IMG/VR virus record: IMGVR_UViG_3300019887_000001
Coordinates: 1-63,248 of that record
Reading direction: 5' to 3' (one strand)
Source of the DNA: a virus
DNA: 63,248 nucleotides
Under the pieces are notes generated by a model, which worked only from the letters and a program-made list of their open reading frames with translations, was not told the DNA's origin and made no database searches. The translations under genes were made by a program, and so were the position numbers. This document shows, piece by piece, positions 20,545-61,600 of this stretch (position 1 is the stretch's first letter; each line of letters opens with the position of its first letter).

Positions 20545-20844
20545 TCAGCGTCTCCGTCTGATTGGTTTGACCAGGCCCATGTCGCGGGCCTGCTCGCGGG
20601 TTGGCAGGATGATCGGGTGCTCTGCCCGCTGCTCGTCGGTCAGGTTGTGGAGCACCTCGTCACCGACCTGGGAGGCGATGCTGAACGCGAGCGCGAACAT
20701 GCCCGCGTCACCCTCGTCGCCGCGGTACGCCGTGTCGATCGTGCCGTCTTCGTTCTCGATGATCACCAGCACGGATCGATTCTGTGGGTCGTCGATGCGC
20801 CGCTGAAGGCGCTCAAAGGCGAAGGCGTCGTTTAGATTCGTCAC
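20545..20844 (-). CDS. Small hypothetical early protein, 99 residues
   Basis: The start is GTG 20844, overlapping the upstream TGA (GTGA), with GGAGA nine bases before. A beta start (SVLVIIENEDGTIDTAYRGD) leads to helices (FALAFSIASQVGDEVL) and ends in a basic tail (PIRRRR). No family recognised. Confidence 0.65.
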   Translation of the reverse strand: MTNLNDAFAFERLQRRIDDPQNRSVLVIIENEDGTIDTAYRGDEGDAGMFALAFSIASQVGDEVLHNLTDEQRAEHPIILPTREQARDMGLVKPIRRRR

Positions 20845-21395
20845 GGCACATTTCTCCATATTTGCCGCGAGACTATCTGCGATATGTGCCCGCTGCTAAT
20901 TCCGTACGTCTGCCCGAGTGTCCTTAGCGAGTCGCCCGCTGCACGACGGCTGCGAATTGTTCCGACAATGTCAACCGTAAGCTTCGCAGCGCCGCAGTTC
21001 GCACCGTTGAAGTCCGCAGCGCGACCCTTGGCATGCATGTCCTTGATGTTGTCGCTCATTGTCCCAAGGAACAGATGGCTTGGACGGGCGCAGGGGCGAT
21101 TATCGCAGCGATGCAATACCTGGATGTGGCCTAAGCGCGGCCCTCGCATGCAGGGGTGGTTCCCATAAGCGAGTTCCCACGCGATGCTATGATCAGAGCG
21201 AGTTCGTTGCTCCGCAGGTACCCAGATTTCGGCATAGTTTGGCCCCGGGGGACCACCACGCGCCGGACATGCCGGCCAACACTGATCTAGTTCAGGACGA
21301 TGTGGCGGAAGCGGGCCGTCTTTGTCCACGCGCTCTTCCAGCAATTGCCTTAGGCTCAGTGAAGCCTTTCTTGTTCGGTGGTAGCCATAACTCAT
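20841..21395 (-). CDS. HNH homing endonuclease with C-terminal helix-turn-helix
   Basis: 184 residues. The HNH core is HIQVLHRCDNRPCARPSHLF with a following N (SDNIKDMHAKG). The C-terminal KLTVDIVGTIRSRRAAG plus YGISSGHISQIV forms a helix-turn-helix. It is a relative of the products at 973-1587 and 54415-54888. Unlike most endonuclease genes here, it reads with its operon and shares a GTGA overlap with the next gene. Confidence 0.9.
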   Translation of the reverse strand: MSYGYHRTRKASLSLRQLLEERVDKDGPLPPHRPELDQCWPACPARGGPPGPNYAEIWVPAEQRTRSDHSIAWELAYGNHPCMRGPRLGHIQVLHRCDNRPCARPSHLFLGTMSDNIKDMHAKGRAADFNGANCGAAKLTVDIVGTIRSRRAAGDSLRTLGQTYGISSGHISQIVSRQIWRNVP

Positions 21396-29325: not shown

Positions 29326-30630
29326 TCAGTCTCCCCTTCGCATCATGTGGTCGACCGCGACAAGCCGATGCCCTAGCCACTCAGCGACAGTGGCGATAAC
29401 GCCGTTGCCGCACATCCGGTAGCGATGGCTGTCAGGGATCTCACGACCGTCAGCAGTCCAGCGTGTGTGCTCATCAGGCCAACCCATGAGGCGCTCACAT
29501 TCAAGTGGCGTCAGGCGACGAACACCGCAGCCGGGCCCGCTGACAGCGGGTCCGGCTGCTATCCCTAATCCCGTACCGACTTTGATCGGCGGGCACGTAT
29601 CGCCTGCATTGACGCCACGTGTTCCGCCAGTTGGTTGGAATGCGATCAGGTTGTCTGAGCAGTCGCCACGCGGACTGGAATGCCCATGATGTCCGTCGCT
29701 GGCGCGCTTCGCGCCAGCGACTACAAAGTTCTCAGTCTCGCCATCCATGCGATAGCCCGACGCGCGTGCCCTCACGGCACGCGCGTCGGGCTCAATGACG
29801 AGGTTCAGATCATCTTCGTGGTGTCGACCGGGAAGATTGCTGTTTGGGTGGCCGCCGGCCGTACGGCCGGCGGCCACATGGAGTTGCCCTGGCCATGCTT
29901 GATCGGCTCGGACGTTGCCGTGGTGACTTCCGATAGTGCCTGCAACGCTGTTAGCAGCGCTGGTGGGAGTTCCTTGCCCCGCTTCGCGGCGCGGCGCAGG
30001 ATGCCCGCCGCAGCTTTCGCAGACAGCCAGTACTTGCGCGGCACGGCGCGCGTCTCCAAGACATCCGACAAGGATCGGACGACGGCGCCGCTGGGGCACT
30101 CCGAACCAGCGGCCGTCCAGTATCCGCCAGGCCACGCCATACCCTGCGTCGACCAGGGTCCGCAGAACGATGCCGAAGTCAATTCCTGGTCGCTCGGGAG
30201 GACTGGATAAAAGTCCAGGGACATTCTCAGCGGCGATCCATCGTGGCCGCAGTTCTCGCACCACCCGCGCGAACTCATAGAAGAGACCGCTTCGCTCGCC
30301 GGAAAGTCCGGCCCGTTTACCGGCCACGCTGTGGTCCTGGCAGGGCCATCCTCCGTAGACGAGATCAACACTGGCGGCAGCGAGTGCCGTTCCTCCCAGC
30401 CGTTGAGCGTCGGAGACGTGGTCGTGTCCGACCACGTCTCCGCATCGCCCTTGAAGTGCGGCCGCGTCCACTTGGCGAACATCCGTTATGCACTCCGTCT
30501 CCGGCCAGTGGCGCGCGAGCACCTCTAGGCACCAGGGATCTTGTTCGACCTGAAGCATCGTGCGGATGCTGGCTCGGTCGAAGCCGATTTCAAAGCCACC
30601 CGCACCACTGAATAGTGAGACGGCCTTCAT
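29326..30630 (-). CDS. DNA (cytosine-5) methyltransferase
   Basis: 434 residues from ATG 30630 (TAATG overlap with the upstream gene). Motif I LFSGAGGFEIG, motif IV GGWPCQDHS with catalytic Cys97, motif VI AENVPG, motif VIII QRRRRPI, motif IX LTPLECERLMGWPDEHT and motif X GNGV are all present. A long variable region between VIII and IX should hold target recognition. It methylates cytosine in phage DNA, probably to escape host restriction. No cognate restriction gene is seen. Confidence 0.95.
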   Translation of the reverse strand: MKAVSLFSGAGGFEIGFDRASIRTMLQVEQDPWCLEVLARHWPETECITDVRQVDAAALQGRCGDVVGHDHVSDAQRLGGTALAAASVDLVYGGWPCQDHSVAGKRAGLSGERSGLFYEFARVVRELRPRWIAAENVPGLLSSPPERPGIDFGIVLRTLVDAGYGVAWRILDGRWFGVPQRRRRPILVGCLGDARRAAQVLAVCESCGGHPAPRREAGQGTPTSAANSVAGTIGSHHGNVRADQAWPGQLHVAAGRTAGGHPNSNLPGRHHEDDLNLVIEPDARAVRARASGYRMDGETENFVVAGAKRASDGHHGHSSPRGDCSDNLIAFQPTGGTRGVNAGDTCPPIKVGTGLGIAAGPAVSGPGCGVRRLTPLECERLMGWPDEHTRWTADGREIPDSHRYRMCGNGVIATVAEWLGHRLVAVDHMMRRGD

Positions 30631-30743
30631 TACGCACTCACCGCGGGACTCAGCACGTAGGCGACCACAAAGATGATCACCGCGGCGGCCACCATCAGAA
30701 TCCACAGCAGCACTTCGCCCCCGCCGCTTTCGTCGCGGGTCAT
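30630..30743 (-). CDS. 37-residue single-span membrane microprotein
   Basis: Polar start MTRDESGGGE, then one membrane span (VLLWILMVAAAVIIFVVAYV) and LSPAVSA. It starts inside the upstream stop (ATGA) and ends in the methyltransferase start (TAATG). Could be a membrane effector or exclusion factor. No evidence beyond topology. Confidence 0.65.
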   Translation of the reverse strand: MTRDESGGGEVLLWILMVAAAVIIFVVAYVLSPAVSA

Positions 30744-31141
30744 GGCTTCTGCACCGCTTCCTTGAAGCCATCCATGAGGCGGTCTTCCATGAGGGCTCGA
30801 ACACGTTTGAACTCCGCAGTCGCGGCGTTGCCTGCCGGCTCAATCTCCGAGTCGGTGTACGCCTTACAGCTAATGTCGACGCCGCGCGTGGACGTCTTCA
30901 CTTCGACGCTGCTGACGCGCTCCGAGGATCCCTTCCCCTGCGCATCGAGCGTCGCATTGATCTGCTGGAGCTGGTCGAGGATTGCCCCGAGCGTGTCCTC
31001 CAGGGATGGGCGATAACGGTTGCGCACCGATGCTGGCTGCTTGTCGAAGTCTTCGGTGTGGATGTCAGGACTCTTGTCGCCGGCCATGATCGCGGCTGCC
31101 GTCGCGTCCCGCTGCCATCGCGCGGCACCACCGTCACTCAT
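30740..31141 (-). CDS. Early protein carrying the WQ-DATAAA / IHxEDF module
   Basis: 133 residues. Residues 3-42 (GGAARWQRDATAAAIMAG ... DIHTEDF ... VRNRY) match the duplicated module in the virion protein at 1584-3677. The rest is helical (LEDTLGAILDQLQQINATLD) plus a beta segment (SSVEVKTSTRGVDISCKAY) and a C-terminal helix, similar to small phage proteins linked with single-strand DNA metabolism. ATGA overlaps on both sides. Function unknown. Confidence 0.7.
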   Translation of the reverse strand: MSDGGAARWQRDATAAAIMAGDKSPDIHTEDFDKQPASVRNRYRPSLEDTLGAILDQLQQINATLDAQGKGSSERVSSVEVKTSTRGVDISCKAYTDSEIEPAGNAATAEFKRVRALMEDRLMDGFKEAVQKP

Positions 31142-32520: not shown

Positions 32521-33567
32521 GTGACTCGACGGCCCCCGTCAATTCCCCTAGACGGGGCGGTACCGAAGACTGCCGATCCTTCTATCTTCCGCACCCTGAA
32601 CGGGAGGAAGATCGTGGATCTGTATGACGCAGCTTCGTACCACCAGTTAGCGCTCAACGCCGCAGGCAAGTCGCCGAACACCCTCAAGCTGTACCTGCTG
32701 TACGAGAAACGCTTTCTGGAATACCTCAACGCACGTCATATCGCCGCCGACCTGGACGCGCTGAACCCACTCTACGCACGCCAGGCCGTGCTCTGGTTTC
32801 AACAGCGCCGCGTTGGCACCCGCGGCGGCGTGTCCGCAACCGCGATGTTCCTGAACGTGCTCAAGACCTGGGCGTCGTTCCTCGAAGCGGAAGGCGTGTG
32901 GGCCGACTCGCCATTACGCCGCGTGCAGCGGGTCAAGGTGAGGAAGCTCGAGCGCCAGCCGTACACGCGAGCCGAGTGCAACGCGCTGTTGTATTCGTGC
33001 TCAGCCAGCTCGTCGCCGGAACGCGACCGATTCCTCGTGGAGCTGCTGCTCGGGTCGGGCGCGCGGATCGGCGAGGTGACCGGTCTGCGGCTCGGCGACG
33101 TCCGCTGGGATCGACGCACGATCCGCGTCCTCGGCAAGGGTAACCGTGAGCGGACGGTCCCGATCGGCGACCCCGAGCAATCCGACGGTGGGCCGGTCTG
33201 GCGCTCGTGGCGTGTGTACCTGAAGGTGCGCGCGGCGCAGGTCGATCGGATGCGCGGGCGCGCGCACGACCAGCTCTTTCTGACCCTGGCCGGCTACCCG
33301 CTGACCGCGGAAGGCGGTGCCGACGTCATCCGTCGCCTGGGTGGATCCGTCGGCGTCGAGGGTGCCCTTCCGCATCGTTTTCGCCACACCTTCTGCACGG
33401 TGTATCTGACGCGGTACCCGGGCGACGAGATCGGCCTGCGCCGCATCGTTGGCCACCTGTCCAAAGCCGTGCTCGCCGACTACGTCCATCTCGCGAACGC
33501 CGAGATCGCGCTGCGTGCCGGCCACGGGTCGCCGATGAGTGTCTGGCTTACTGAGAAGATTCGCTAG
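32521..33567 (+). CDS. int: Tyrosine recombinase (integrase)
   Basis: 348 residues from GTG 32521. The N-terminal SAM-like binding domain is at ~35-135. Catalytic residues: R182 (GARIGE), K206, H285 and R288 (HRFRHTF), H312 (GH) and Y321 (ADYVHL). It should insert and excise the prophage. There is no obvious attP: both flanks are crowded with genes. A small excisionase was not identified with confidence. Confidence 0.93.
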   Translation: MTRRPPSIPLDGAVPKTADPSIFRTLNGRKIVDLYDAASYHQLALNAAGKSPNTLKLYLLYEKRFLEYLNARHIAADLDALNPLYARQAVLWFQQRRVGTRGGVSATAMFLNVLKTWASFLEAEGVWADSPLRRVQRVKVRKLERQPYTRAECNALLYSCSASSSPERDRFLVELLLGSGARIGEVTGLRLGDVRWDRRTIRVLGKGNRERTVPIGDPEQSDGGPVWRSWRVYLKVRAAQVDRMRGRAHDQLFLTLAGYPLTAEGGADVIRRLGGSVGVEGALPHRFRHTFCTVYLTRYPGDEIGLRRIVGHLSKAVLADYVHLANAEIALRAGHGSPMSVWLTEKIR

Positions 33568-36491: not shown

Positions 36492-36947
36492 TCAAAAAGG
36501 GAGATCATCGAGGTTCACTGGTGCCAGCGCGTCGGCCGGCTCCGTCGTGCGTCGAGCCCGCTCGTTCGCTGCATGGACCGGCTCGCCGCGACTCGCGTAC
36601 TCTGCCGACCCGCTCGTTGGCGCGTCTCGAGGAGATAAATTGGTCACCTCGTCGCACCACACGTTCAGCCCAGCCCGCGGCTCGTTCTCACGCGACATGT
36701 ACGCGTCGATCGACAGGTTCCCAATCACGTGGACCCTCGACCCCTTCCCCAGCTTCCGCGCGTACTCGAGCTGCCGACCCATGACCGTCACCCGATACCA
36801 ATCCGTGTGGTCGGTGCACTCGTCCGACTGTGGCACCTTCCGCCGCTCGTTGACCGCGACATTGAACTGTAACCGCTCTTTGCCATCCTGCGTAAATCGC
36901 GACTCAGGATCGCTGCCGAGATTGCCAATCAACATGATCTTCTGCAT
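36492..36947 (-). CDS. ssb: Single-stranded DNA-binding protein
   Basis: 151 residues from ATG 36947, with GAGGGAA eight bases upstream. OB fold: MQKIMLIGNLGSDPESRFTQ, FNVAVNERRK, TDWYRVTVMGRQLEYARKLG and GSRVHVIGNL. The C-terminal tail is disordered and ends in DDLPF, the usual acidic tip that recruits partner proteins. It coats single-stranded DNA in replication and recombination and may work with RecT. Confidence 0.95.
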   Translation of the reverse strand: MQKIMLIGNLGSDPESRFTQDGKERLQFNVAVNERRKVPQSDECTDHTDWYRVTVMGRQLEYARKLGKGSRVHVIGNLSIDAYMSRENEPRAGLNVWCDEVTNLSPRDAPTSGSAEYASRGEPVHAANERARRTTEPADALAPVNLDDLPF

Positions 36948-37094
36948 GACTTGAATTCCCTCGCCCGCCAGATGCACGGGCCCGTTTTGTTCGTCCTCAA
37001 TCGATGAACCGACGCGATCCTCTCCTCCCCTCGACAGAGCCTGCCGACCGAAGTGATACAAGTCACGGACCCTGGAAGCGGGTCGCTGTCAAGG

Positions 37095-37200: not shown

Positions 37201-37398
37201 TCACTTCTGGTCGTCAGGCGCCCACACGCGCCACACTGGCGTACGCACGAACTCCTCCTCGTACCCAACCGGATTCCAGTTGACTGCCTCCGAGTCGGTC
37301 ACCCCGTACTCAACCAGCAGCACCCCGGCGTTCTCGTCCAGGTCGACCTCGAGCACCGTCATGTCGTCGCTCTTCACGGCGTCAGCCACATCCCCCAT
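37201..37398 (-). CDS. Small acidic protein, 65 residues
   Basis: MGDVADAVKSDDMTVLEVDL then ENAGVLLVEYGV and a C-terminal PVWRVWAPDD. Beta-rich and acidic. Last gene of the secretion-like operon, overlapping the upstream microprotein gene by 17 bases. Function unknown. Confidence 0.6.
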   Translation of the reverse strand: MGDVADAVKSDDMTVLEVDLDENAGVLLVEYGVTDSEAVNWNPVGYEEEFVRTPVWRVWAPDDQK

Positions 37399-37522
37399 GC
37401 AGCGCTAGCACCGGCAAGAGCAAAACAATGGCGATCACACCTAAAACGATCATGATCACGCTCAACACCGTCGCCTGCACTATCGTGTTCCGCTGTTCTC
37501 GCTTGAATTCCTCGTCATTCAT
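37382..37522 (-). CDS. 46-residue single-span membrane microprotein
   Basis: Charged start MNDEEFKREQRNTIVQ, then one long membrane span (TVLSVIMIVLGVIAIVLLLP). ATG 37522 overlaps the coupling ATPase stop (ATGA). Position suggests an accessory to the membrane complex. Confidence 0.65.
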   Translation of the reverse strand: MNDEEFKREQRNTIVQATVLSVIMIVLGVIAIVLLLPVLALHGGCG

Positions 37523-39180
37523 GGCGCCACGTCCGCGTACTGCGCATGCCCCGTCGGCAGCTCGCCCCGCTCCCGAGCATGTCGACGCCTCAAGTTCTCA
37601 GCCCGCGTACACGCCTCAAGATGATCAACGCACGCCTTGATGTCGCACACGTGGTCGACCGTCCACCCCTTCTGCATCACCCCGTGCTCCCACTCGCAGA
37701 TCAGTCGATGCGCCTGCTCGTACTTGCGCCTCGTCGGCACCCACACCCGCGGATACCCGTCAACGTCGAAATTCCCGACCCACGTCCGCCAGCCATCCTT
37801 CACCTTTACGTGCCGATACACCATGCCTCGAAGATCTTCCTCTGGTTCCGTCCCTCCGTTACCTTCCGCAGTCGGTTCCATCTCGACGGCGGGTTCCTCC
37901 GCAGGTCCCTCCGCGAGCACCTTGACGTTGACCTCGAGCACGTACGGCAGCGCGATCCGCGCCATGCCCCACCTCCCATCCATGCGGTCAACCGGCCGCA
38001 CGCGATACGCGCACTCGCCCGTCCCGAGCCACATCAGGTCGTCGCGCATGACCGTCGGCGTACCGCTGGCGAACTTTCCGAGGGTGACGTTATTAATTCG
38101 ATGATCGTTTTCAGAACGCGGGACCTTGAGCGGAAACAACCGACTCAACGCGTCCGCGTCGTCGGGATCCCCCTGCGCCAGGATGACCTGCCAGGCCGTC
38201 TCCTGAAGCACCTGATTGCCGAGACCGTGCACCGCAGCTTCGAGCTGGCTCAGCCCGTGCGCAGCAACGACCACCCCGACCCCCGCGTCTCTCGCCCGGG
38301 CGAGCAGCGGCTCGAGGTGACGCGCGTGCTTGCCGAGCGCGCCAACCTCGTCGACGACGAGTAAGCAGGACGTCCCGACCGGCACCGCGGTACAGGCCCG
38401 CTGCAGCGCAACGAGCGCCCACGCGCCGATGATGCGCGCCAGCGACGGGTAGCGCCGACTGTCCAGGCTGACGAGCAGCGTCGTCTTGCCCTGCACGACA
38501 TCCTCGAATCGAGCCGCGTCGATGCCCGCACCCAGACTAGGGCCGGCGGCAGAGTCGAGCAGTCTCGTCACCCGCATGAGCGCCGTCGCCATGCCGGACA
38601 ACTCCGTTACAGACGCGGCCGCGAGCTCTGCTTGCCAGATCGGCACCCGCGGCCTACGCTGATTCCGCTTCAGCGCGGCGGCCAGCATGGTGGGGTTGAG
38701 CAGTGCTTCGACTGCTTCTAGCGTTGGAGGGGTCGCCTCCCAACGCAAGAGGTGACCGATCCACTGACACGCTCGGGCGGCCGCCTCGCTGAAGACTTCC
38801 GCCGGGCCCTCGTGGCGCGCGGCTTCGGTGAGCTGCTCGGCCAGTACCGTCGGGTCAGGGTCCAGCAGGTCGAGCTTGAGCCGCCCGCCGATCGTCCACA
38901 CCAGGCCGCCCGCGGCGGCGATCGCCTCCTGCATCGCCCGCGAGCCCTTCGCGTCGATGACGATGCACGGGCCGATGCTCGCGTGTCCCTGGACGAGGAG
39001 GCTGAGTAACGTGGTTTTGCCCGAGCCCGGTGCGCCGAATACCGCGCCATGGTGGCCCAGCTCGCGGCGAGAAAGACTGACCGTCTCGAGCGCTGACCGA
39101 TAACCGATCCCGACACGCCCATGCCGATGCCCGATGCCATGCCGCGCGCGTGCCGCCGCGATCCAGCCGGGTCGCCTCAC
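37519..39180 (-). CDS. VirD4/TraG-like coupling ATPase fused to an HNH nuclease domain
   Basis: 553 residues from GTG 39180. ATPase: Walker A GAPGSGKTT (49-57), IVIDAKGS (~73-80), Walker B CLLVVDEVGALG (272-283), and sensor-like VVVAAHGLSQ. It lacks N-terminal membrane spans, as do some soluble TraG-type proteins. Residues ~450-540 form an HNH domain: YEQAHRLICEWEHG, TVDHVCDIKACVDHL and ENLRRRHA. Coupling proteins deliver DNA to a type IV channel; the fused nuclease might cut or process that DNA. HerA/FtsK-like ATPases are the alternative family. The neighbours favour a coupling role. Confidence 0.8.
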   Translation of the reverse strand: MRRPGWIAAARARHGIGHRHGRVGIGYRSALETVSLSRRELGHHGAVFGAPGSGKTTLLSLLVQGHASIGPCIVIDAKGSRAMQEAIAAAGGLVWTIGGRLKLDLLDPDPTVLAEQLTEAARHEGPAEVFSEAAARACQWIGHLLRWEATPPTLEAVEALLNPTMLAAALKRNQRRPRVPIWQAELAAASVTELSGMATALMRVTRLLDSAAGPSLGAGIDAARFEDVVQGKTTLLVSLDSRRYPSLARIIGAWALVALQRACTAVPVGTSCLLVVDEVGALGKHARHLEPLLARARDAGVGVVVAAHGLSQLEAAVHGLGNQVLQETAWQVILAQGDPDDADALSRLFPLKVPRSENDHRINNVTLGKFASGTPTVMRDDLMWLGTGECAYRVRPVDRMDGRWGMARIALPYVLEVNVKVLAEGPAEEPAVEMEPTAEGNGGTEPEEDLRGMVYRHVKVKDGWRTWVGNFDVDGYPRVWVPTRRKYEQAHRLICEWEHGVMQKGWTVDHVCDIKACVDHLEACTRAENLRRRHARERGELPTGHAQYADVAP

Positions 39181-39183
39181 GGT

Positions 39184-39444
39184 TCAGAGATAGCCATAGC
39201 ACGGTCCATCCGCGAACTTGCGCTCCACCTCGTGCAGCACCTGCTTTGCCAACCCTTTGATATCAATGACCTGATCGATGAGCACGTCCCTCACTGTCTG
39301 CTGACACCAGACCCCATCGCTCAACCGCGTGAACCGGTAACCGGTCCAGTGCCCGTCGTTACTATGCCGTGTCTCAATCTGGAAGCCGGGTGGCCGTAGG
39401 CTGAAAATCACAGCAGTAAGCGGGTTGAACTGTGGATGTGCCAT
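39184..39444 (-). CDS. Small hypothetical protein, 86 residues
   Basis: Beta-rich start (TAVIFSLRPPGFQIETRHSN) and C-terminal helices (LIDQVIDIKGLAKQVLHEVE). No membrane span. ATG overlaps the upstream stop (TGATG). Likely a cytoplasmic partner in the module. Family unknown. Confidence 0.6.
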   Translation of the reverse strand: MAHPQFNPLTAVIFSLRPPGFQIETRHSNDGHWTGYRFTRLSDGVWCQQTVRDVLIDQVIDIKGLAKQVLHEVERKFADGPCYGYL

Positions 39445-39638
39445 CAGTGCAGCGGAACAATCTGAGTCGAGTAGATCGTTGCGGTTTTGCCTGGTGCCTG
39501 GTCGATGACGTCGATCTCAATGCTCGACGGCCTGCTCTCCCGCGGCCACAGCACGAGCAGGACCACGATCACGAGCGCCAGAATGGTCGCTATCAGCATC
39601 CACTGCTCGCGCGTCCAGGTCGCAACGTTCAGGTTCAT
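39444..39638 (-). CDS. Small single-span membrane protein, 64 residues
   Basis: MNLNVATWTREQW then a membrane span (MLIATILALVIVVLLVLWP) and a ~30-residue outer part with beta character (IEIDVIDQAPGKTATIYST). Overlaps both neighbours. Possible channel accessory. Confidence 0.65.
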   Translation of the reverse strand: MNLNVATWTREQWMLIATILALVIVVLLVLWPRESRPSSIEIDVIDQAPGKTATIYSTQIVPLH

Positions 39639-39778
39639 AGGCCGATGTAGAACATCGTGCGCGTATCGCGCGACCGGTCCCGCGGAATCTTCAGCTTCGT
39701 CCTCGGCACCCTCGCAGCCCGATACATCAGCCAGTACAGGCCGACGCACACGATCCCCAGTACGACAAGCCCTATCAC
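39635..39778 (-). CDS. 47-residue single-span membrane protein
   Basis: GTG 39778 overlaps the VirB4-like stop (GTGA). One span (MIGLVVLGIVCVGLYWLMY) and a basic tail (RVPRTKLKIPRDRSRDTR). Possible accessory in the secretion-like complex. Confidence 0.6.
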   Translation of the reverse strand: MIGLVVLGIVCVGLYWLMYRAARVPRTKLKIPRDRSRDTRTMFYIGL

Positions 39779-41895
39779 GACACGCCCTCCTTCCTGATCG
39801 GAATCGGCTCGGCCTCGACCACCGGGTCTGAGTGGAAGGCGGCATGCTCCCGAGCGCTGAGCCGATCGAAAAGATCGAGCCAGACCCGTCGCAGTCCGCT
39901 GACGAGTAGTCCTGTCCCGATTCCCGCGCGACGCACCATCCCTTTCTCGTCGGCGCTCAACTCGAGCGCGTCCGCCACCTCGGCCAACTCCCGCGGTTGC
40001 TGCGCTCCGCACCACCACGCGTCGCAGTTGCCCTGCACCGCGCGGCCGACAGCCGTGCCGAACCATGACGACGGTCGCTGGGTCAGCACGTGAAAACTCT
40101 GTCCCCAGTGCCGCGACCGCTGCACTGCCTGACGCATCGCTCGTTCACCCGCGGGATCCTCAGACACCGTGATCGCCTCGTCGACAAACACGATCGACCT
40201 GCCCGGATGCGCCAGCATGTGCTGTTTGATCACATTCGTCCACGCCGCGAAGATCGCCCCGACGTGAGCCTCGTCGACCTCGCTCAGGTCAAGGATGACT
40301 ACTCCGTCGTCGCGATGCAGCACGATCTCGCGTGCGTCCCGCGCGTCTCGCGGCGTGAGCTTCCGCCCGCCGAGGTACTCGAGGAAGCGTCCGCAGTGCT
40401 CATGTTGCTCGTCCTGGTCGATGCCGAAAATACGGATGCCTTTGACGAGGTGCAACCGTGACGTCAGGATGTGGAACCCCATACCCTTGCCCGCGTTCGT
40501 CGCGCCGTACCAGCTCATGTGGGGTCCCTTCGACGTCGACACGTACGGCGTGAAGATGCACGGCCGATTGCCCGCGTTGCCCCACGGCACGCCGTTCGGT
40601 AGCTGTAGATAGCCATCCGACCACGGGTACGTCCGCGACACGGTCCGTGTGTCGACGAGGTGCGTCCGCCCCGTCATCGGCTTCGTTCGTACCGGGTCGA
40701 GCTGCAACAACCCATCTCCCTGCTCCCAGCGCAGGTTGTGGAGCTTGCCGCCGAGGGTCTTCACGTAGTCCTCGGTCTTGCGCGACCGTTTCCGCACATC
40801 CTGCCGCGACGACCCGCGAACGAGCACCGTCACCGCGACGTTGAACGGCTTCGTGTAGCGGTGCTCGAGCGCGTAGCGCAGGTCGGTCAGTTGCTCGAGC
40901 GCGACCATCCGCGCGGCAGACGGATTCGACGTCTCGAGTTGCCTGATCTTGACGTCGACGACCCACGCTTTCACGTACGTCTCGTTCTGTGGCACCACGT
41001 CGATCGCGATATCGAGCGCCTCATCACCGGCGAACAGCGGAGACGCCCAGTTGGTCAGAATCGCCGCCGGAAACTGACCGAGCGCGTACGCCCGTGTCCA
41101 CCATCCGTCGGCCTGCACCTCGGTCGTGCCCTCTTCCATGACTTCCGGTCCGTCGCGTGCCTCGGTCGCCTGCGGGTTCCACGTGAGCGTTCGCAGCAGC
41201 GGCACGTCCTCAGCCGGTACTCGCGACGCCTCGAGGTGCGCCTGCCGCAGCGCCTTCTCGAGCGCGGTCGTCCGAAACGCCAATTCCGACTCGTTCTGTG
41301 CCGGTACGACAAGCAACCTGTCGCGATCGATCAGACTGTGTTGCGCCAGCTCGCTCTCGAACCACGCGCCGAGATCGCGGGCCACCTCGAGTGGATGATT
41401 CCGCAACGCCTCGACGACCGGCAGCGTCGTCAGCGGGCGCCCGCGGATGACAATCTTGATCGGGTGCGTCAGCCCGTTGAGGATGGCGCCCCACTGAGCG
41501 CGCGCCTGGTGCCGCGCCTCGTCGCTAGCCGTCTCCAGGTTGATGGTTGGCATGCGATAGATCGCGACTGGCGTCGCCGGGCTCGTCGGCAGTTGCGCGC
41601 GATAGGTGCGCTTGACGAACCTCAGCGCGGCGAAGGTGCCATGCTCGGCCGGCGGCTTGAGCCACCAGGCCGTGTACGGCGAGATGAGTAGCGGCGGCAA
41701 TAGCGCGGCGCCGATCGTCGGCGGCAGCAATCCGTTCGTCGCCTGCCAGGCCGTGTACCCGAGGGGTATCCCGAGGAACACGCCCGCGTAGAGCGTCGGC
41801 ATGAGAAATCGGGCCGGAAATGGCCCGATGCTCTGCTGCGTCTCGAGATGCGAGGGTACTAAATAATGCTGCTCGCCAGACGATTCTTCAGCCAT
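39775..41895 (-). CDS. VirB4-like type IV secretion ATPase with N-terminal membrane segment
   Basis: 706 residues. Residues ~25-80 hold two membrane segments (FLMPTLYAGVFLGIPLGYTA; GAALLPPLLISPYTAWWL), like PrgI/VirB3-type regions fused to VirB4. The ATPase part has Walker A GATNAGK (464-470), Walker B SIVFVDEA (567-574) and a VLTQRPSSW motif typical of VirB4/TraC arms. The residue after Lys470 is Gly, not the usual Ser/Thr. It should power assembly of, or export through, a membrane channel. Confidence 0.8.
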   Translation of the reverse strand: MAEESSGEQHYLVPSHLETQQSIGPFPARFLMPTLYAGVFLGIPLGYTAWQATNGLLPPTIGAALLPPLLISPYTAWWLKPPAEHGTFAALRFVKRTYRAQLPTSPATPVAIYRMPTINLETASDEARHQARAQWGAILNGLTHPIKIVIRGRPLTTLPVVEALRNHPLEVARDLGAWFESELAQHSLIDRDRLLVVPAQNESELAFRTTALEKALRQAHLEASRVPAEDVPLLRTLTWNPQATEARDGPEVMEEGTTEVQADGWWTRAYALGQFPAAILTNWASPLFAGDEALDIAIDVVPQNETYVKAWVVDVKIRQLETSNPSAARMVALEQLTDLRYALEHRYTKPFNVAVTVLVRGSSRQDVRKRSRKTEDYVKTLGGKLHNLRWEQGDGLLQLDPVRTKPMTGRTHLVDTRTVSRTYPWSDGYLQLPNGVPWGNAGNRPCIFTPYVSTSKGPHMSWYGATNAGKGMGFHILTSRLHLVKGIRIFGIDQDEQHEHCGRFLEYLGGRKLTPRDARDAREIVLHRDDGVVILDLSEVDEAHVGAIFAAWTNVIKQHMLAHPGRSIVFVDEAITVSEDPAGERAMRQAVQRSRHWGQSFHVLTQRPSSWFGTAVGRAVQGNCDAWWCGAQQPRELAEVADALELSADEKGMVRRAGIGTGLLVSGLRRVWLDLFDRLSAREHAAFHSDPVVEAEPIPIRKEGVS

Positions 41896-41901
41896 GACCG
41901 A

Positions 41902-42144
41902 TCAGGGCAGTCCGAAGACGCCTTTCAGCCACAACCCGAGCGCGCCACCACCCCCGACAAGGAAACTCCCGCCGAGCGACGCCATCAACAGTTTTTTGAT
42001 GAACCCGCCAATATGCATGTCGAAGATGGAAAAATAGAAGGCAAGACCGCCGAAGATGATCGTCATCGTCAGCAGTCCCGCGCCGAGCAGCGCGGCGCCC
42101 GTGGCAATGGCCGTAAACGCGGTAACGAGTGGTGTAACTGGCAT
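41902..42144 (-). CDS. Small multi-span membrane protein of VirB2/VirB3-like size
   Basis: 80 residues, nearly all hydrophobic: TAFTAIATGAALLGAGLLTM, IIFGGLAFYFSIF and a Gly-rich LLMASLGGSFLVGGGGAL. Two or three spans without charged ends, as in TrbC/VirB2-like subunits. Position between VirB4-like and VirB6-like genes supports this, but sequence similarity is not demonstrable by eye. Confidence 0.6.
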   Translation of the reverse strand: MPVTPLVTAFTAIATGAALLGAGLLTMTIIFGGLAFYFSIFDMHIGGFIKKLLMASLGGSFLVGGGGALGLWLKGVFGLP

Positions 42145-42159
42145 CGAACGTCCTCCAGT

Positions 42160-43197
42160 TCAGTCGTAGTTGTTGAATCGATGCGTTGCGTTGGCGGCCT
42201 GCATCGCGGAGTAGGACCGCATGGCCGCGGCTTGAGATCCTGCCGATATCGCTGCTCCTCCCACACCTCCGAATACGACCGCACCGGATCTGACCCCGGC
42301 CCCGAGCACGCCGCCAAGCGACGCGCCCGGCGTGCGCGCCAGCCAGTCGACGAGGTCGGCCGCCGCGATGAATGCCGCCCCGGCACCTAAAAACGCAAGG
42401 ATGCCTGGCGTGAGCACCGCGATGCCCCACCCGATCGCAACCGCGGCCGTCGCTAGCACAACGCCCATCAGCCGCCCGACAAACTCGCGTGTCCACAGCG
42501 ATGTGACCCACGCGCCCTCAGGGATGAACCCGGCGATGATCGCGACGGGTGCCCAGGCGATCGCGACAGCGACGTGCACGACGTTCGACAACAGCTTGAG
42601 ACACAGCCTGATGCCGAGCACGAACATCAGCAACAGGCTGAACGCGAAACTGAGCGGGTTGCCCTGGTTGACCTGCGTCGGGATCGTCGCGGTGATGCTC
42701 GCGAACGCCGTCGCGGTGATCGATTGCACCGCGGCCTGCTCGATGTCGATGGCGTGGCCGATCCCCCATGGCAGCAGCGACAGTATCGCGATCGACTTCA
42801 CGATCCGCCCGAGTGCTTCGTCGAGGATGCCACCTCCACCAACGATGCCGCGGTAGTACGTACGCAGCCCGAGCAACACGATAGACAGCACCAGGCCGGC
42901 TGCGGCGATCTGGGTGCCCGCGGCAAAGAGCGCCGCTACGGGCGGGAACTGATCGGTGAGCGCGTGCGGGATGTCGACCAGGGTGACCTTCAGAATGGCC
43001 AGGAACATCTGCAGCAGGGCCGTGTAGAGCGCGTCGGTGAGCGCGCCGAAGATGGTGGCACCGATCATCGGCAGGTTCTGACTGACGCCGGTCCAGATCG
43101 CCGCGCCGATGACGTCGAGCTGGCCGATGAGCGCCTGCCAGAAGCCGTTGAAGTTGATCTGAATCGGTCCCGTCGACTGCGCGAATTGATCAGGCAT
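42160..43197 (-). CDS. TrbL/VirB6-like polytopic membrane protein
   Basis: 345 residues from ATG 43197, with AGGAGG eight bases upstream. At least six membrane segments, including LYTALLQMFLAILKVTLVDI, AAGLVLSIVLLGLRTYY, LSFAFSLLLMFVLGIRL, NVVHVAVAIAWAPVAIIAGF and VVLATAAVAIGWGIAVL. The Ala/Gly-rich end is cytoplasmic-like. Layout matches the TrbL/VirB6 family, which forms the inner part of the conjugation channel. Confidence 0.75.
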   Translation of the reverse strand: MPDQFAQSTGPIQINFNGFWQALIGQLDVIGAAIWTGVSQNLPMIGATIFGALTDALYTALLQMFLAILKVTLVDIPHALTDQFPPVAALFAAGTQIAAAGLVLSIVLLGLRTYYRGIVGGGGILDEALGRIVKSIAILSLLPWGIGHAIDIEQAAVQSITATAFASITATIPTQVNQGNPLSFAFSLLLMFVLGIRLCLKLLSNVVHVAVAIAWAPVAIIAGFIPEGAWVTSLWTREFVGRLMGVVLATAAVAIGWGIAVLTPGILAFLGAGAAFIAAADLVDWLARTPGASLGGVLGAGVRSGAVVFGGVGGAAISAGSQAAAMRSYSAMQAANATHRFNNYD

Positions 43198-44053
43198 CCT
43201 CAACCCTCCTGGTGACGGTACGCGGTTTCCAGACCGCGACTCGGCGCCGTGTCATGAGCCAACTCAACGCTGCGACGATGACGATGATCGCGGCGAGCCC
43301 CTCGAAGAAACCGCCCCAGTCCCAGTGACCCTCAATCGGTGGGATCGTCGCGCCGGCGATGACCAGCGGCGTGGGAGTCGCCGTAGAGGTCGCTTGCAGG
43401 GTCCCTGTGGGGGTCGCCGTGCGCGTGCCTGTCGGGGCGACCGTGGGCGTAGACGTCGCTAGGGGCGTGCCTGAGAGCGTTGACGTGGGCAATGGCGTGT
43501 AGGTCGGGTACGGCGTATAAGTTGGTTGTGGGTCGATGGCACTGGCCGGTGCTTCGGGGGCGCTCGGCTGCGGACGTGGCGGCGGGGGCAGTACTGCGAG
43601 CGAAGTGGGAGGCGCAGCAGGAATGGGAGTACGCGTTGGCTCGACGGACGGTTCCTCAGACGCTTCGTCTGCTGTCACGTCTGTCATTGGATCTGGACAC
43701 GGCAGCGGCACGTAGACGTCCGGATCGTCTTCCGACTCGACGAACACGATGTCTCCGTTATCGTCTACTTGCCAGCAGGGGGCGTCGGTCGGCGTCGGGG
43801 TCTCGACCGATACGGGTTCGCTCGTCGGGGACGGGGTGGACGTCGCTACCGCGACCGGTACGAGACTCGCAGTCGCCCTCGTCGTTGGGGTTGTGGTAGG
43901 GCACTCAGGTCGCCTCTGCGCGATGCAGTTCGCCGTCTCAGCCGTCGCGTGGGTCGCAACAGTCGCGGTCCTGTCGGCTCGGATCTGGTCGTCATTCTGA
44001 TCGGCCCCAAAGAGCCGCACGGCCAGGAGAACCGTGATGACTGTTGCAGGCAT
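43190..44053 (-). CDS. Exported Thr/Pro-rich surface protein with C-terminal membrane anchor
   Basis: 287 residues. Short N-terminal hydrophobic start (TVITVLLAVRLFGA), then a long disordered stretch with many TPTP-type repeats (YTPYPTYTPLPTST; GTRTATPTGTLQATSTATPT), a small Cys-flanked patch (CWQVDDNG...PCPDP), and a C-terminal span (AAIIVIVAALSWLMTRRR). The style matches Chloroflexota wall-spanning linkers. As first gene of the secretion-like operon, it may present or anchor the apparatus at the cell surface. Confidence 0.7.
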   Translation of the reverse strand: MPATVITVLLAVRLFGADQNDDQIRADRTATVATHATAETANCIAQRRPECPTTTPTTRATASLVPVAVATSTPSPTSEPVSVETPTPTDAPCWQVDDNGDIVFVESEDDPDVYVPLPCPDPMTDVTADEASEEPSVEPTRTPIPAAPPTSLAVLPPPPRPQPSAPEAPASAIDPQPTYTPYPTYTPLPTSTLSGTPLATSTPTVAPTGTRTATPTGTLQATSTATPTPLVIAGATIPPIEGHWDWGGFFEGLAAIIVIVAALSWLMTRRRVAVWKPRTVTRRVEDA

Positions 44054-44083
44054 ATTGCGGTATGCTAACGCAACCGTGCCGGG

Positions 44084-44320
44084 GTGTTACAAGTGACAAA
44101 CGAAACTGTTGCGGTTCCGGGCCTTGCCTGGCGGCGACAGCATCTCTTCTTTTCGCAGACAGAGCTCGCGCGCGTGTCCGGGATCACCCGTCAGACCATC
44201 GCGCGCCTCGAGGGTGGCGACCGCGCCGCGCCGCGAACCGTCCGCAAGCTCGCTGAGGCGCTAAATTGCGAGCCTCAGGAGTTGACGTTGCAGCTATCCG
44301 CTAGCGGTAGGACTGAATAG
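44084..44320 (+). CDS. XRE-family helix-turn-helix regulator
   Basis: 78 residues from GTG 44084 (GTG 44093 also possible). HTH: FSQTELARVSGITRQTIARLEGGDRAAPRTVRKLAEAL. Divergent from the secretion-like operon across ~30 bases, so it probably controls that operon, as HTH regulators do in many conjugative elements. Confidence 0.85.
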   Translation: MLQVTNETVAVPGLAWRRQHLFFSQTELARVSGITRQTIARLEGGDRAAPRTVRKLAEALNCEPQELTLQLSASGRTE

Positions 44321-45663: not shown

Positions 45664-46095
45664 TTATGACGGGGCGTACGCGACCCAACCGAACGTCACG
45701 TTGGATCCCGCGTTCCCGTTGTGGAAATAGATCTCGAACCCGGTCGTGGTCACCAACCGCACGACCGCGGGGAAATCGTTCTTTGGGTCGCCGCCGATAA
45801 TCTGCTGATTCACCACGACCACCGGTGTGGACACGAACGGCGTGCCAAACGTGATCAATCCCGTGCCCTGGTCACCTCCGCCGGCGGGCGCAACGGTCTT
45901 TAGCCCGTATTCCACGTGCCCTGGGCCAGGAGGTCCGGTTGCCCCCGCAGGTCCGGTCGCTCCCGCGGCACCGGTCGCGCCCGTGGCACCAGTAGCGCCG
46001 GTCGCTCCCGTCGGGCCGGTCGGTCCCGCGGGCCCTGTTGCCCCCGTCGCGCCCGCCGCGCCGTTTGCCCCGACGTGCAGTGGTGTGTAGGTCAT
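45664..46095 (-). CDS. Collagen-like tail fibre protein with C-terminal beta domain
   Basis: 143 residues. ATG 46095 has AGGGCGG upstream. About 17 Gly-X-Y triplets ([16 protein letters not shown]...) are followed by an H-type-lectin-like beta domain ([10 protein letters not shown] ... [20 protein letters not shown]). Trimeric fibres of this type bind host glycans. It lies downstream of other fibre genes. Confidence 0.85.
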
Positions 46096-46111: not shown

Positions 46112-46687
46112 TCAGTAGAACGCGTCTCGCCCTACTGTCTTGGCGAATGCGAGGACAGCGGCATGAGCCTGCTCCTCCGTATCGAACGTGCCAAGGTAAT
46201 AGCGTTGCTCGTCCACCTCGAGCCGGCCCATCCATCGCTTGTGGTTCGGGTGCACTCCACGAAACCGCGAGCGTGTGCCCGTCCGTTTGGAACTGTTGAG
46301 TTGATTGATTCCGGTTCCGTCGCGGAGATTTGAGCGACGGCAGTTGTGTGGATCAAGATCGATATGATCAACAGTCTTGACCCCCGGCATCAGCATGCGA
46401 TGTAGATACTCGTCCCGACCCTTGAGTCGCGTTCGTGCGTAGCCATCGCTGTTGTTTTGCCAGAGATGTTTCGCTAGGGACGGAAAGTCGGCGAGATCCA
46501 CAATCCAACGCACGCCATGCGGGTCGCTGAGAACTCCTACTTCGCCCTCTATGAAGTTCCGCGCACGGAGACGCTCGAAGAATGGGACCTGTCCCCTGGC
46601 TGTCGCGTAGTAGCAACGCGCGCACATTCCGCGACAATAGGCCGCTCGTTCTCTGCATCGAGCACACATCATGTCTGCCTGCCGCAT
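46112..46687 (-). CDS. HNH homing endonuclease with AP2 domain
   Basis: 191 residues. N-terminal zinc site ([18 protein letters not shown]), HNH core ([30 protein letters not shown]), and a C-terminal AP2 DNA-binding fold ([35 protein letters not shown]). A classic mobile endonuclease, in the same direction as the fibre genes it separates. Confidence 0.95.
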
Positions 46688-54909: not shown

Positions 54910-55905
54910 TCACCCAGCTACGGCGGTCTCAATTCTGAGTATTCGTGCCGCGTCAAGTATCTTAGCGCAATAAGCAACTTTCCAGCCTGCGACCCCGTAC
55001 TGCTGCAGCGGGTCGACCTTCGATGGCGTGTTCGCGGGCACAACCATGATGTCGATGCCGGCGTTGTTCGTCTCGGCGTTCAGGTTGCCGATCGTCTGAG
55101 AAGCCAGGTCGACGGCGCCGAACGCGTACGGGCCCCAGATCAGCGCGGCGTGGACGTCGACACCCGCCGCGCCAGCACCCGTGAAGATCGGGTTGGCCGT
55201 GCTGACGTCGAAGTTGACGCCTTCGATCTCGCCGACGGTGCCACTCATGAACGACGCCGGCGCGGCGTAGCGCATGATGTCGAGCCAGCCGCCGGTCGCA
55301 GCGTCGGCCTTCAGGTCGTACTTCTGCGACGGAGTGACGGAGCCGTGGTAACGCGCGTCGGGAAACCGCGGCACGTTCGCCTTTTCCATCGTGCGAACGG
55401 CCTTGCGAACCTCGGACATGACGAAGTTCATGCCCGCCGCGACCGTCACCCTGGAGACTGCCGTCGAGGCGTACTGAACTGTCGAAGACGCGCCCAGCTC
55501 GGTCGCGGTCAGCGTGTGGACCGACAGACCGGCTTGCTCACCTTCGACGTCCATGACGTTGGACATCGACGGGTCGATGCCCGCGCGAATGAGCAGGTCT
55601 GAGACCTTTTGGAACGCCCCGTACTGGGCGAGCGTCGAGGTTACCGCGGTGACGGTCAGCGACCCCTCAGAAGGCGGCGTGCCTTCAGTCAGCGCCGACG
55701 TCGCGGCTGGGAGACTGCCCCACTTGCGCCACTGGATGCCCGTACCAGTGTTGCTGCCGATCGTGTCGGTCATCGCGTCTTTGAGCAGCGGCAGGTACGG
55801 GAGCAGACGCCTCAGCGTCTTGGCCACGTAATACGATCGCTGCTCGACCGTCAACGTGGCGTAGGTCTGTACGGAAATTTGCTTTACCCGCGTCTTTCTA
55901 TACAT
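54910..55905 (-). CDS. Major capsid protein, N4 gp56-like family
   Basis: 331 residues. Strong family features: IQWRKWGSLPAATSALTEGT, TLAQYGAFQKVSDLLIRAGI, VMDVEGEQAGLSVHTLTATE and late SVTPSQKYDLKAD and DIMVVPANTPSK. HK97-type fold. It forms the icosahedral shell around the scaffold. It lies directly after the scaffold gene in transcription order, but an HNH gene separates the two. It has no good ribosome site. CATTAT lies six bases before ATG 55905, the same spacing as the leaderless starts here. Confidence 0.93.
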   Translation of the reverse strand: MYRKTRVKQISVQTYATLTVEQRSYYVAKTLRRLLPYLPLLKDAMTDTIGSNTGTGIQWRKWGSLPAATSALTEGTPPSEGSLTVTAVTSTLAQYGAFQKVSDLLIRAGIDPSMSNVMDVEGEQAGLSVHTLTATELGASSTVQYASTAVSRVTVAAGMNFVMSEVRKAVRTMEKANVPRFPDARYHGSVTPSQKYDLKADAATGGWLDIMRYAAPASFMSGTVGEIEGVNFDVSTANPIFTGAGAAGVDVHAALIWGPYAFGAVDLASQTIGNLNAETNNAGIDIMVVPANTPSKVDPLQQYGVAGWKVAYCAKILDAARILRIETAVAG

Positions 55906-58433: not shown

Positions 58434-58618
58434 GATCTCTCCTCGAAGCCGCAGCACTGCTTGGCGGTATTTGCGCGGTCGCGCTGTTCTCAGGCGGCAG
58501 CATACTCATTGGCACGATCCTGTTCGGAGCGTTGATTGCGGGGTTCGGTCTGTACTTCCGCGCTTACCCCGAACGGGCTGAAGCTCTCAGGCGCAGCAAC
58601 CCAGCCAACTTCGCCTAG
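58430..58618 (+). CDS. Two-span membrane protein, partner of the exported repeat protein
   Basis: 62 residues. ATG 58430 overlaps the upstream stop (ATGA). Two spans (LLEAAALLGGICAVALF and ILIGTILFGALIAGFGLYF) and a short basic tail. Ends four bases into the convergent giant gene. Perhaps displays or exports its partner. Could also block superinfection. Confidence 0.7.
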   Translation: MRSLLEAAALLGGICAVALFSGGSILIGTILFGALIAGFGLYFRAYPERAEALRRSNPANFA

Positions 58619-61600
58619 GGTGGCGTGCCGAGGGACAACACATCAGTCCCAGCACCAACAAGCCCACCCGCGGCCGCGGTGTTCGATGTGTTCGTCAGTG
58701 CGCCGCCTGTCGCAGCGTCGATCGCGGCCTTGAGCTTGTTCAAGCGCTCAGTGTCGACCCGATCACGCTGAGTGAGTTTGAACCCGGCCGGGTCGTCGAT
58801 CCGCATGCGCATTTCACCCCTGCTCGGCCCGAGCGCCTTCGTGTACTGAGCGAGTTTGGTTTTTGCCTCGGCGATCTGCAGGTTCTGCTCCGCGATCTGC
58901 TGCGGCGTGCCGGTAACGTTGCGATACTGAGGCGTCTGCTGCCACTGCAACAACGCGGTGTTGTGCGGGTCGCGCGCGATGTTTCCGCCAAGGTCGATAT
59001 TCGCGGCTTTGCGCGCGGTTGCCAGTGACTTCGAGAGCGCGTTCGCTTTCTGAGCGTCGGTGAGTCCGGCGTAGGCCGGATCGGCCATCGTATTGAGCGC
59101 GTACAGGTTGACGGCGTTGCCAACCGTTCGCTGGATCAACGATTGCTGGTCGGGCGCCTGCGCGGCCCCCTGGTAGCCGCCGATGCCACTCACAGACGGC
59201 GGGGTGATACCTATGGCTTGGCCGGCCTGACGGAGCCGCATCACTTCGTTGATGACCGGTCCACCAGACCCGCCGCTCGTCGCGGTGATCACATCCGGCG
59301 AGCTGCCGCGCTTGGCCATGAACGTGCCAAGGCCGGCTTGTTCGTTGGGTAACACGCGCCCGAGCACATCGCGACTCAGCGGTACGTTCTGGCGCAGTCC
59401 TGGCAGGTTCTGGCTGAGGACCTGGCCGATGTCGCCTGAAACAGGCTTGCGTGCACCCTCCGTATCGGCAGCCCTGGTGAGACTGGCGACAAGTCCACTC
59501 TCAGGAACAAACCCGCCCGCAAGCGAGCCGCCGAACTGAGCGATAACCGATTGAGCAGTCGGCCCGCCGTGAATCACCGTGTACAGATCGCTCAGTGTCC
59601 GCAGCCCGGTGGCGTCGCCGAGGTAGCTCACCGTGCGGTCGGCCATATCGAGGGCAACCTGCTCAGGCGTGGCTGCGGTCGTCGTCTTCAGACCCGTCGT
59701 CGGGTCAACCTGTTTCTGTGGATAGTTTGTCGCGTCGGCGTAGTTGCCAGCCAATGCGAACGGAACCGCGAGCGGGCCGAGCAAGTGGTAGTCAACGTAT
59801 CCAAGGCCCGGAACGTAGACGCTGTGGGCCTGCCAGCCTTTTGAGACGAGCATCTTGCGCTCGTCGGGATCCGCAGGACCATTGCCGGTGATCGAGCCGT
59901 CGAGTGCCTTGGATGCCAGGTAACCCGTGAGTGCCGTCCCAGCGATGTTGTTGGTGAGCCGATCGCTGAGTGGAGTGACCGCGCCGCCAAGTTTGTTGAA
60001 GCCACTGGCGTAAGGACCTGCACCGCGCAATCCGCGCAGCACGTCGAAGCCAGTCCCAACAAGCCCGATGGGTGACTTCTCAATGCCCTGCGCAAATGCC
60101 TGAGAAGCGATCTTGACGACGGGGAACAGCGCGTTGCCTGCGACGGGCACATTCGCGATGTTTTGCATGACTGTCTGAATAGTGCCCGCCTCGCCACGCA
60201 AAGCCCCGCGGCTGCCGATATCCTCAGCTTTGGCGATCGCTTGCTGGTTCAGCCCCAGACTCGGATCATTGATCAGCTCGCTAACTCGTCTGACAAAGTC
60301 CGGACCGTGAAGTCCCTCCGAACTGGCGACTTCGCCTGCTTGCGCTCCGAGCTCCATGTGTTTGATCGCTTGCTGGGCGACATTCTGGAATGCCGAGTGC
60401 AGCGCGGCGCCGGTCGCCTGCTGAGCCCTCAACGCCCCGGCCAGGATCGGATTGTCGACGCGGTTGGCGATATTGGTCGGGGCAGCATAAAAGTCCCTGA
60501 TGGCCGAGCCGAACGCGTCGCCTGAACGCGCGAGCGCGGCCGACATTCCGATGCTACGGCCGGCGATGCGGTCGAATTGCGCCCCCTGGCCGGTAAGCGG
60601 TGAGGCAAGTGTTTGGACGACATCCTTACCCGTTTGGGTAGCGAGTGACCACGCGGGCGCAATGATCGAGTTGACGGCCACGTGCGTAAGCGTCGAGAGA
60701 CCGCTGATGACGTTGCCCGAGTGAACAGCTTTCAGGATGTCTATCGCGGTTGGTGGCTCACCTGGAACAGCCGGCGGTTCCGCAGGCGCACCAGGGGGTG
60801 TGCCGGTAGTTGTTGGTGGTTCGACGGGGGGTGTTGGAGGCTCACCAACACCCCCCGTCGTCGCAGAAGCCGGCCGTGTCTCGGCAGGCGTGCGCGGTAG
60901 TTGGGCTTCCAACTCGGATACGTCATAGCCCCGGTCCTTCGCCATGTTGACGAGACCCTGAAGTAGCGTGTCGCCCTGCTGCGCTGGTGGCGTCAGGTCA
61001 GCGGCTGCAGCGTTTGGCGCAATGCCTGGCACAGACGGCTCGCCGGCGCTACCGATACCACGCTCCGCCGCTGCTGCAACATCAGGTGCCGTAGCCTCAA
61101 CGGCGGACGCCGCATCTGGTGCCGCATTCTGAAGTGCCGCGAGCGCCTTGCCCGGACCAGACGCAGTAATGCTGCCCTCGCTCATCTGTGGGAACTTCGC
61201 GCGGAGATCCGTGACTGCCTGTTGTGCACTGGACAGTGCGGCTTCGAGTGCTTCAGGCGATGACTTGGCGACGACGTCGGCCAGCTCCGCCGCGGCCTTC
61301 TCGCCACCCGCGCCCGGTGACAGACTCGTGACGTCCGCGGCAGCGCCGAGGATGACGCCCGCTGCGCCGAGGATGTCACCCTGCCCGGTTGCTCCCTGAA
61401 ACTGGCCGGGTGCCGAGAGCAACGGGGTGAGGACGTCGGGGACGACCTGGTTGCCGCCGACGTTGACGCCAGCGGTGCCAGGACCTGACGGAATCGGTTG
61501 ATTCGCGGCTTCCCGGAGTTGATCGAAGACCGTCGGCTGCGGCGTCTGTCCCGCGAGCGGCCCCTCGGGCGGCGTGTACAGGTTGGGTCGCGCGATCGGG

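Follow-up and report, generated by a model that had tools for sequence, protein, structure and literature searches.

Minimal conjugative type IV secretion systems (T4SS) of Gram-positive mobile elements consist of a PrgI/VirB3 protein, a VirB4 ATPase (CD1110 VirB4 family), a VirB6/TrbL protein and a coupling protein. The archaeal Ced/Ted systems and archaeal conjugative plasmids contain homologues of VirB2, VirB4 and VirB6 and no recognisable relaxase (PMC9905601, PMC11868833), and a HerA-NurA pump-nuclease pair has been proposed to make the single strands in these systems (PMC9905601). Phage-borne ATPases resembling VirB4 or TrwB have been described as gp155 of Bacillus phage G and gp32 of phage SPP1, the latter being proposed to act with small membrane proteins (PMC6316719). 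Here, we report on an operon in the virus record IMGVR_UViG_3300019887_000001 of IMG/VR, whose full length of 63,248 bases was analysed and is referred to as the window. Sequence comparisons support the assignment of this operon to a family of conjugation-type T4SS modules carried by temperate tailed phages, in which the coupling ATPase is fused to an HNH nuclease domain.

The module shares its core parts and operon logic with the minimal Gram-positive systems, but differs from them by the lack of a relaxase, the fusions of the coupling ATPase to an HNH domain and of PrgI to VirB4, and its tailed-phage carrier. It resembles Ced/Ted in having a VirB2/VirB4/VirB6 set without a recognisable relaxase, whereas it is bacterial and mobile, includes a VirD4-like protein and has its nuclease covalently attached as an HNH domain. 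Its ATPases are not of the CedB/CedD type, as the VirB4 of the related phage G146 matched conjugative models at 1.2e-20 versus 8.2e-6 for CedB. In the case of gp155 and gp32, only the ATPase was matched, and no set of pilin, VirB6 and coupling protein was seen there; gp155 showed 18–24% identity (24% to the VirB4 of phage G003, L003:8001-9650). The separate parts are thus already known, but neither a complete set carried by phages of several virion types nor a coupling ATPase-HNH(-primase) fusion was found in the literature searched, which covered open-licence papers and contained no description of a phage module of this kind.

Organisation of the Operon

The operon occupies positions 37201-44053 on the minus strand, with all genes running in one direction and adjacent genes overlapping or separated by 4–16 bp. 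All genes described in an earlier note, made from the sequence alone, were recovered at the positions given there, including those for three tiny single-span proteins (47, 64 and 46 amino acids) and, divergent from the operon, a regulator gene with a helix-turn-helix (HTH) motif. For comparison, the following list refers to the module-carrying tailed-phage contigs G003 and G146 and to the non-phage element C378.

44084-44320, plus strand: HTH (Cro/C1-type) regulator, divergent from the operon (HTH_3, 2.8e-12; 51% identity to the divergent HTH protein of G003)
43190-44053, minus strand: Thr/Pro-rich protein, membrane-spanning at its two ends (from the sequence; C-terminal part 35% identical to C378)
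42160-43203, minus strand: VirB6/TrbL-like polytopic membrane protein (43% identity to the gene at the same position of C378)
41902-42144, minus strand: VirB2/TrbC-like small membrane protein, 80 amino acids (34% identity to C378; the same slot in G146 is a pilin)
39775-41895, minus strand: PrgI/VirB3-like N-terminus fused to VirB4 ATPase, 706 amino acids (NCBIfam and PDB profile matches)
39635-39778, minus strand: 47-amino acid single-span protein (start codon GTG, overlap with the virB4 end)
39444-39638, minus strand: 64-amino acid single-span protein (homologue at the same place in C378)
39184-39444, minus strand: 86-amino acid soluble protein (no family match)
37519-39180, minus strand: VirD4/TrwB-like coupling ATPase (to about residue 430) with HNH_3 nuclease (about residues 455–545), 553 amino acids
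37382-37522, minus strand: 46-amino acid single-span protein (from the sequence)
37201-37398, minus strand: 65-amino acid acidic protein at the end of the operon (from the sequence)

The ATPases and the Fused Nuclease

The coupling ATPase of the window matched TrwB_AAD_bind at 4.3e-12 (46.1 bits versus a Pfam cut-off of 20.5) and HNH_3 at residues 489–531 (5.7e-8), which identifies a VirD4-type coupling protein with a C-terminal nuclease domain. The fusion is present in nine copies of the module, namely in five phages, a contig of a metagenome-assembled genome (MAG) and three non-phage elements, with the most divergent HNH domain in phage contig L128. The HNH residues HR, [D/G]H, the paired Cys, HL and N are kept across most copies. 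The homing HNH_3 endonucleases of phages belong to the same nuclease family, but the domain of the module is attached to the coupling ATPase. The coupling proteins of G003, G145 and G146 share 53–56% mutual identity, while that of the window is about 25% identical to them and has lost an N-terminal membrane span retained by its relatives.

The window VirB4 alone showed no Pfam match and matched the NCBIfam model for a VirB4-like conjugal ATPase at 3.8e-10, which is far below the curated cut-off. A profile of five proteins (window, G003, G145, G146 and MAG contig C115) matched the PDB VirB4 entry 4ag5 at 2.8e-26 and TrwK at 1.3e-7, with HerA- or FtsK-type entries at 1e-5 or worse; the G003 protein matched 4ag5 at 6.8e-10 even on its own. 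The membrane-spanning N-terminus of the window VirB4 may correspond to PrgI/VirB3 without matching a family, and a PrgI-like protein is encoded by a separate gene in G003 and L128. This N-terminus, the HNH domain and the lost span of the coupling ATPase had all been overlooked in the earlier note.

An AlphaFold model of the coupling ATPase from five sequences was poor (pLDDT 46), and we used a Foldseek search with this low-confidence model as support only; the best matches were DotL (1e-7) and TrwB (5e-7), ahead of VirB4 and HerA (6e-6). We rejected a HerA/FtsK identity of the ATPases, which the earlier note had named as part of the outcome that would speak against its reading, because both the profiles and the fold search favour VirB4 and TrwB/DotL. 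An identification of the VirB4 as a terminase was likewise discarded: phrog_2666, labelled as terminase large subunit, matched the window VirB4 at 2.5e-13 but also those of the non-phage elements C378 and C511 at 7.5e-13, and the real large terminase subunit (TerL) of the window is encoded at 13625-15517. Annotation by this label would misname VirB4 as TerL.

The Walker A motif of the window VirB4 reads GATNAGKGM, with GKG instead of GKS/T. The GKG variant is common to the window, G145, C115 and the non-phage elements C437 and C511; we rejected it as a marker of the entire PrgI-fused clade because C378 retains GKS. The window protein is 80% identical to the VirB4 of C437, 69% to C378 and 36% to C511, and the dN/dS ratio of 0.16–0.20 (Nei-Gojobori) indicates purifying selection.

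Membrane Proteins and Conserved Small Genes

The membrane proteins of the window found no family: neither the polytopic protein nor the 80-amino acid protein matched any family model as a single copy. The pilin slot of G146 matched PF04956 (TrbC/VirB2) at 3.9e-12, which is above the Pfam cut-off, and that of G003 matched T4SS_pilin at 1.6e-4, below the cut-off. A homologue of the polytopic protein in G145 showed a weak match to TrbL_4 (0.13), and the VirB6-like assignment was made entirely from topology, position and conservation, its AlphaFold model being of too low quality to contribute. The 64-amino acid protein and its homologue in C378 aligned with a score of 88, compared to a mean of 29.7 (standard deviation 5.1) for shuffled sequences. 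The modules of G003 and G146 additionally contain a VirB1-type SLT_3 lytic transglycosylase (1.8e-12 and 1.2e-16), which is not present in the window operon. A homologue of the HTH regulator also heads the module of C378, and a Thr/Pro gene of a similar kind is located at the head of the L129 module.

Occurrence in Tailed Phages

The carrier of the window operon is a temperate tailed phage (Caudoviricetes), as had been proposed, because the genome combines virion genes with an integrase.

13625-15517, minus strand: TerL (54–66% identity to the corresponding genes of related phages)
7783-10170, minus strand: portal protein (by position and relatives; 72% identity to G032, 52% to G003)
54910-55905, minus strand: major head protein (phrog_1357, 1.6e-48)
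32521-33567, plus strand: tyrosine integrase (PF00589, 5.3e-23)

The reading frame of an internal virion protein (58615-63189) appears to run on from one end of the record into the other, slightly offset in frame, and the gene order at the ends is the same as in the relative G032; the record therefore seems to be a near-complete, circularly permuted genome.

We obtained relatives from IMG/VR via TerL, head-protein and multi-sequence alignment searches, while scans of the same database with single VirB4 and VirD4 sequences yielded none. The module was detected in five other tailed-phage contigs, G003, G145, G146, L128 and L129, and the HNH fusion was present in all four of these with a readable coupling ATPase (all but L129). 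The phages with the fusion span podo- and siphovirus-like virions. G003 (64,960 bp), which shares 54% TerL and 63% head-protein identity with the window, carries a matching HTH gene followed by genes for VirB6, SLT, pilin, PrgI-like protein, VirB4 and VirD4-HNH. The structural genes of G145 (54.8 kb) and G146 (78 kb) differ and are siphovirus-like, as those of the 61-kb contig L128 appear to be in the part read, and the 16.9-kb contig L129 has a portal-like gene alongside those for the Thr/Pro protein, VirB6 and VirB4. Because it occurs together with unrelated capsid and tail sets, the module is not a virion structure tied to one morphotype.

Relative G032 is closer to the window in its core genes (head protein 79%, portal 72%, TerL 61%), but contains other genes in place of the module, which indicates an exchangeable cassette. 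Moreover, the VirB4 of G145 is of the window type and its VirD4 of the G003 type, indicating that the modules also recombine internally. The phage modules are located between the tail/lysis genes and the integrase region, which is the usual site of lysogenic conversion genes. VirD4-like matches in G059, G060 and G348 were without the fusion or the module in the parts examined.

Non-Phage Copies, Capture and Host

A Chloroflexi MAG contains a TerL contig with 65% identity to the phage TerL; we searched 400 genomes of its phylum with the coupling-protein profile and detected full-length VirD4-HNH proteins. Three of the contigs concerned, C378, C511 and C437 from Chloroflexota genomes, have the module with its gene order preserved, together with ParB (and ParA in C378 and C437; a tyrosine recombinase in C378 and C511), and showed no match to structural proteins of five phages. 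They fit an integrative and conjugative element (ICE) or conjugative plasmid, unlike the window, in which virion genes are present and ParA/ParB were not seen. The 42-kb contig C378 contains the whole module in window order with one homologous tiny gene, and DnaB- and primase-type genes in addition to those named, whereas C511 has genes for a single-strand binding protein (SSB) and an SLT protein near the module. In the non-phage elements, the VirD4-HNH chains extend into a primase-like domain (phrog_9765, 3.5e-8), which is absent from the phages.

In a VirB4 tree, the window copy was nested with the non-phage elements (support 100/100), whereas G003 and G146 formed a separate clade, indicating at least two captures by phages. 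Repeated capture of the module by temperate phages is our best reading of this distribution. The host of the window phage is probably a member of the Chloroflexota (soil), as suggested by the TerL relative in the MAG, the MAG contig C115 with a module including VirD4-HNH (VirB4 identity 39%) and the phylum search, with binning errors being possible. The link between the TerL contig and C115 of this MAG is tentative, as the MAG showed no head-protein match. In 110 genomes of its class, no second VirD4-HNH was detected.

Absence of a Recognisable Relaxase and Proposed Function

In 70 accessory open reading frames from the window, G003, G145, G146 and the related non-phage elements, 21 Pfam families were matched (threshold 1e-4) and none of them was a relaxase family, although a divergent relaxase could escape this search. 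This bears out the lack of a relaxase reported earlier, and since none of the modules shows one, its absence looks like a property of the module family. As a relaxase substitute, the HNH domain fused to the pump is an obvious candidate, which would be analogous to the role proposed for the HerA-NurA pair of the relaxase-less archaeal systems (PMC9905601).

We infer the following pathway. The temperate, podovirus-like window phage would express the module as a prophage-borne operon of the lysogenic-conversion type under its own repressor-like HTH protein. VirB6, VirB2, the PrgI-VirB4 ATPase and the small membrane proteins may then assemble into a membrane channel, to which the VirD4-like ATPase would recruit DNA and through which it would pump it. 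The fused HNH domain may nick or cut phage DNA to start the transfer in place of a relaxase, and SSB would cover the single strands. The cargo, passing outward to a neighbouring cell, would be excised phage or prophage DNA. We give about even chances to this reading of a relaxase-less DNA-transfer module that was captured from Chloroflexota mobile elements and uses HNH as the initiating nuclease. The primase-like domain on the VirD4-HNH proteins of the elements, apparently an enzyme of the DNA-transfer type, counts in its favour. Several points weigh against it: neither a relaxase nor an oriT was identified, the roles of VirB6, VirB2 and VirB3 are deduced from position, topology and remote homologues, the GKG motif of VirB4 and the lost span of VirD4 could each mean a reduced or altered function, and conjugation by C378, C511 and C437 is itself putative.

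HerA/FtsK-superfamily ATPases paired with nucleases are common in defence. The channel proteins and VirD4-HNH might accordingly serve in the membrane of the lysogen for exclusion, by cutting or blocking incoming phage or plasmid DNA, which we consider unlikely. Such a role would fit a prophage cassette that one phage has and a close relative lacks, and the PADLOC model mad8 matched the coupling ATPase (2.6e-14, 51.5 bits); it also matched the VirB4 proteins, however, and seems to reflect a resemblance across the superfamily. Genes for pilin, VirB6, VirB3 and lytic transglycosylase would be superfluous in a defence pair, and the module is also carried by non-phage elements, there with a primase-like domain.

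Secretion of toxins or effectors, or contact killing, as a fitness gain for the lysogen appears rather less probable still. Coupling ATPases recruit proteins too, a surface-type Thr/Pro protein is encoded at the operon head, and an RP4 T4SS is reported to antagonise neighbouring cells whether or not the plasmid is transferred (PMC11045733). However, no effector/immunity pair was recognised beside the module, and a nuclease fused to the pump points to DNA handling.

We attach little probability to a role during infection, in which the genome would enter or exit through the envelope and some of the proteins might be part of the virion. The operon lies on the late-gene strand, and the module of G145 begins with a gene for a membrane-anchored protein with a C39-peptidase-like domain 47% identical to that of the window internal virion protein, but the same module occurs in podo- and siphovirus-like phages and non-phage elements, has its own divergent regulator and is missing from the phage with the closer core. 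Equally improbable is a functionless passenger, either a piece of a conjugative element that was acquired recently and is decaying, or a chimera of the assembly: the high VirB4 identity to a non-phage copy, the lost VirD4 span and the GKG motif would fit, but all frames are open, VirB4 is under purifying selection, modules occur in five other phage contigs with a matching HTH in G003, and the G+C content is even across the module boundaries in the window.

Returning to the DNA-transfer module, of the phage-conjugative hybrid suggested in the earlier note the conjugation-type module in a temperate tailed phage stood up to the profile and fold searches, and the channel gene set, the VirD4-HNH protein and the same set in related viruses suggest that the virus may transfer DNA through contact between cells in addition to its particles. 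The wider proposal that temperate tailed phages and plasmid- or ICE-like elements of Chloroflexota use a relaxase-free conjugation with the initiating nuclease (and, in the elements, a primase) on the coupling ATPase, so that a viral genome could spread by virions and by transfer, is put forward tentatively. A genome that unites all virion genes with a channel of the conjugation type would blur the boundary between the two principal routes of horizontal gene transfer. The coupling ATPase-HNH(-primase) fusion suggests a way to relaxase-free conjugation in bacteria, the same question being posed by archaeal conjugative plasmids. The module family is sufficiently well defined for a test that takes a single purified protein and a single lysogen.

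Neighbouring Genes and Further Observations

A possible partner of the module is encoded directly downstream of the operon.

36492-37061, minus strand: SSB (SSB, 3.6e-21; 47% identity to the SSB near the C511 module)

Stand-alone HNH-type genes are located at 20841-21395, 46112-46687 and 970-1587 of the window and likely represent the source family of the fused domain. Just upstream of the module, a protein with collagen-like Gly-X-Y repeats is encoded in the tail/lysis region (45664-46095). The C39-peptidase-like domain of the internal virion protein lies near its start and recurs in G145 at L102:6083-6781. The profile match of a C5 DNA methyltransferase (29326-30843) is split by about 140 extra residues in the manner of an insertion, and a gene at 19165-19866 codes for an OmpR-type response regulator; the scanned reading frames include a match to Response_reg and Trans_reg_C. 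Finally, G146 and L129 have aminotransferase/glycosyltransferase genes in common that resemble those of sugar biosynthesis (L129:2113-5415; L105:5229-8155), which in L129 are located between the portal-like gene and the module.

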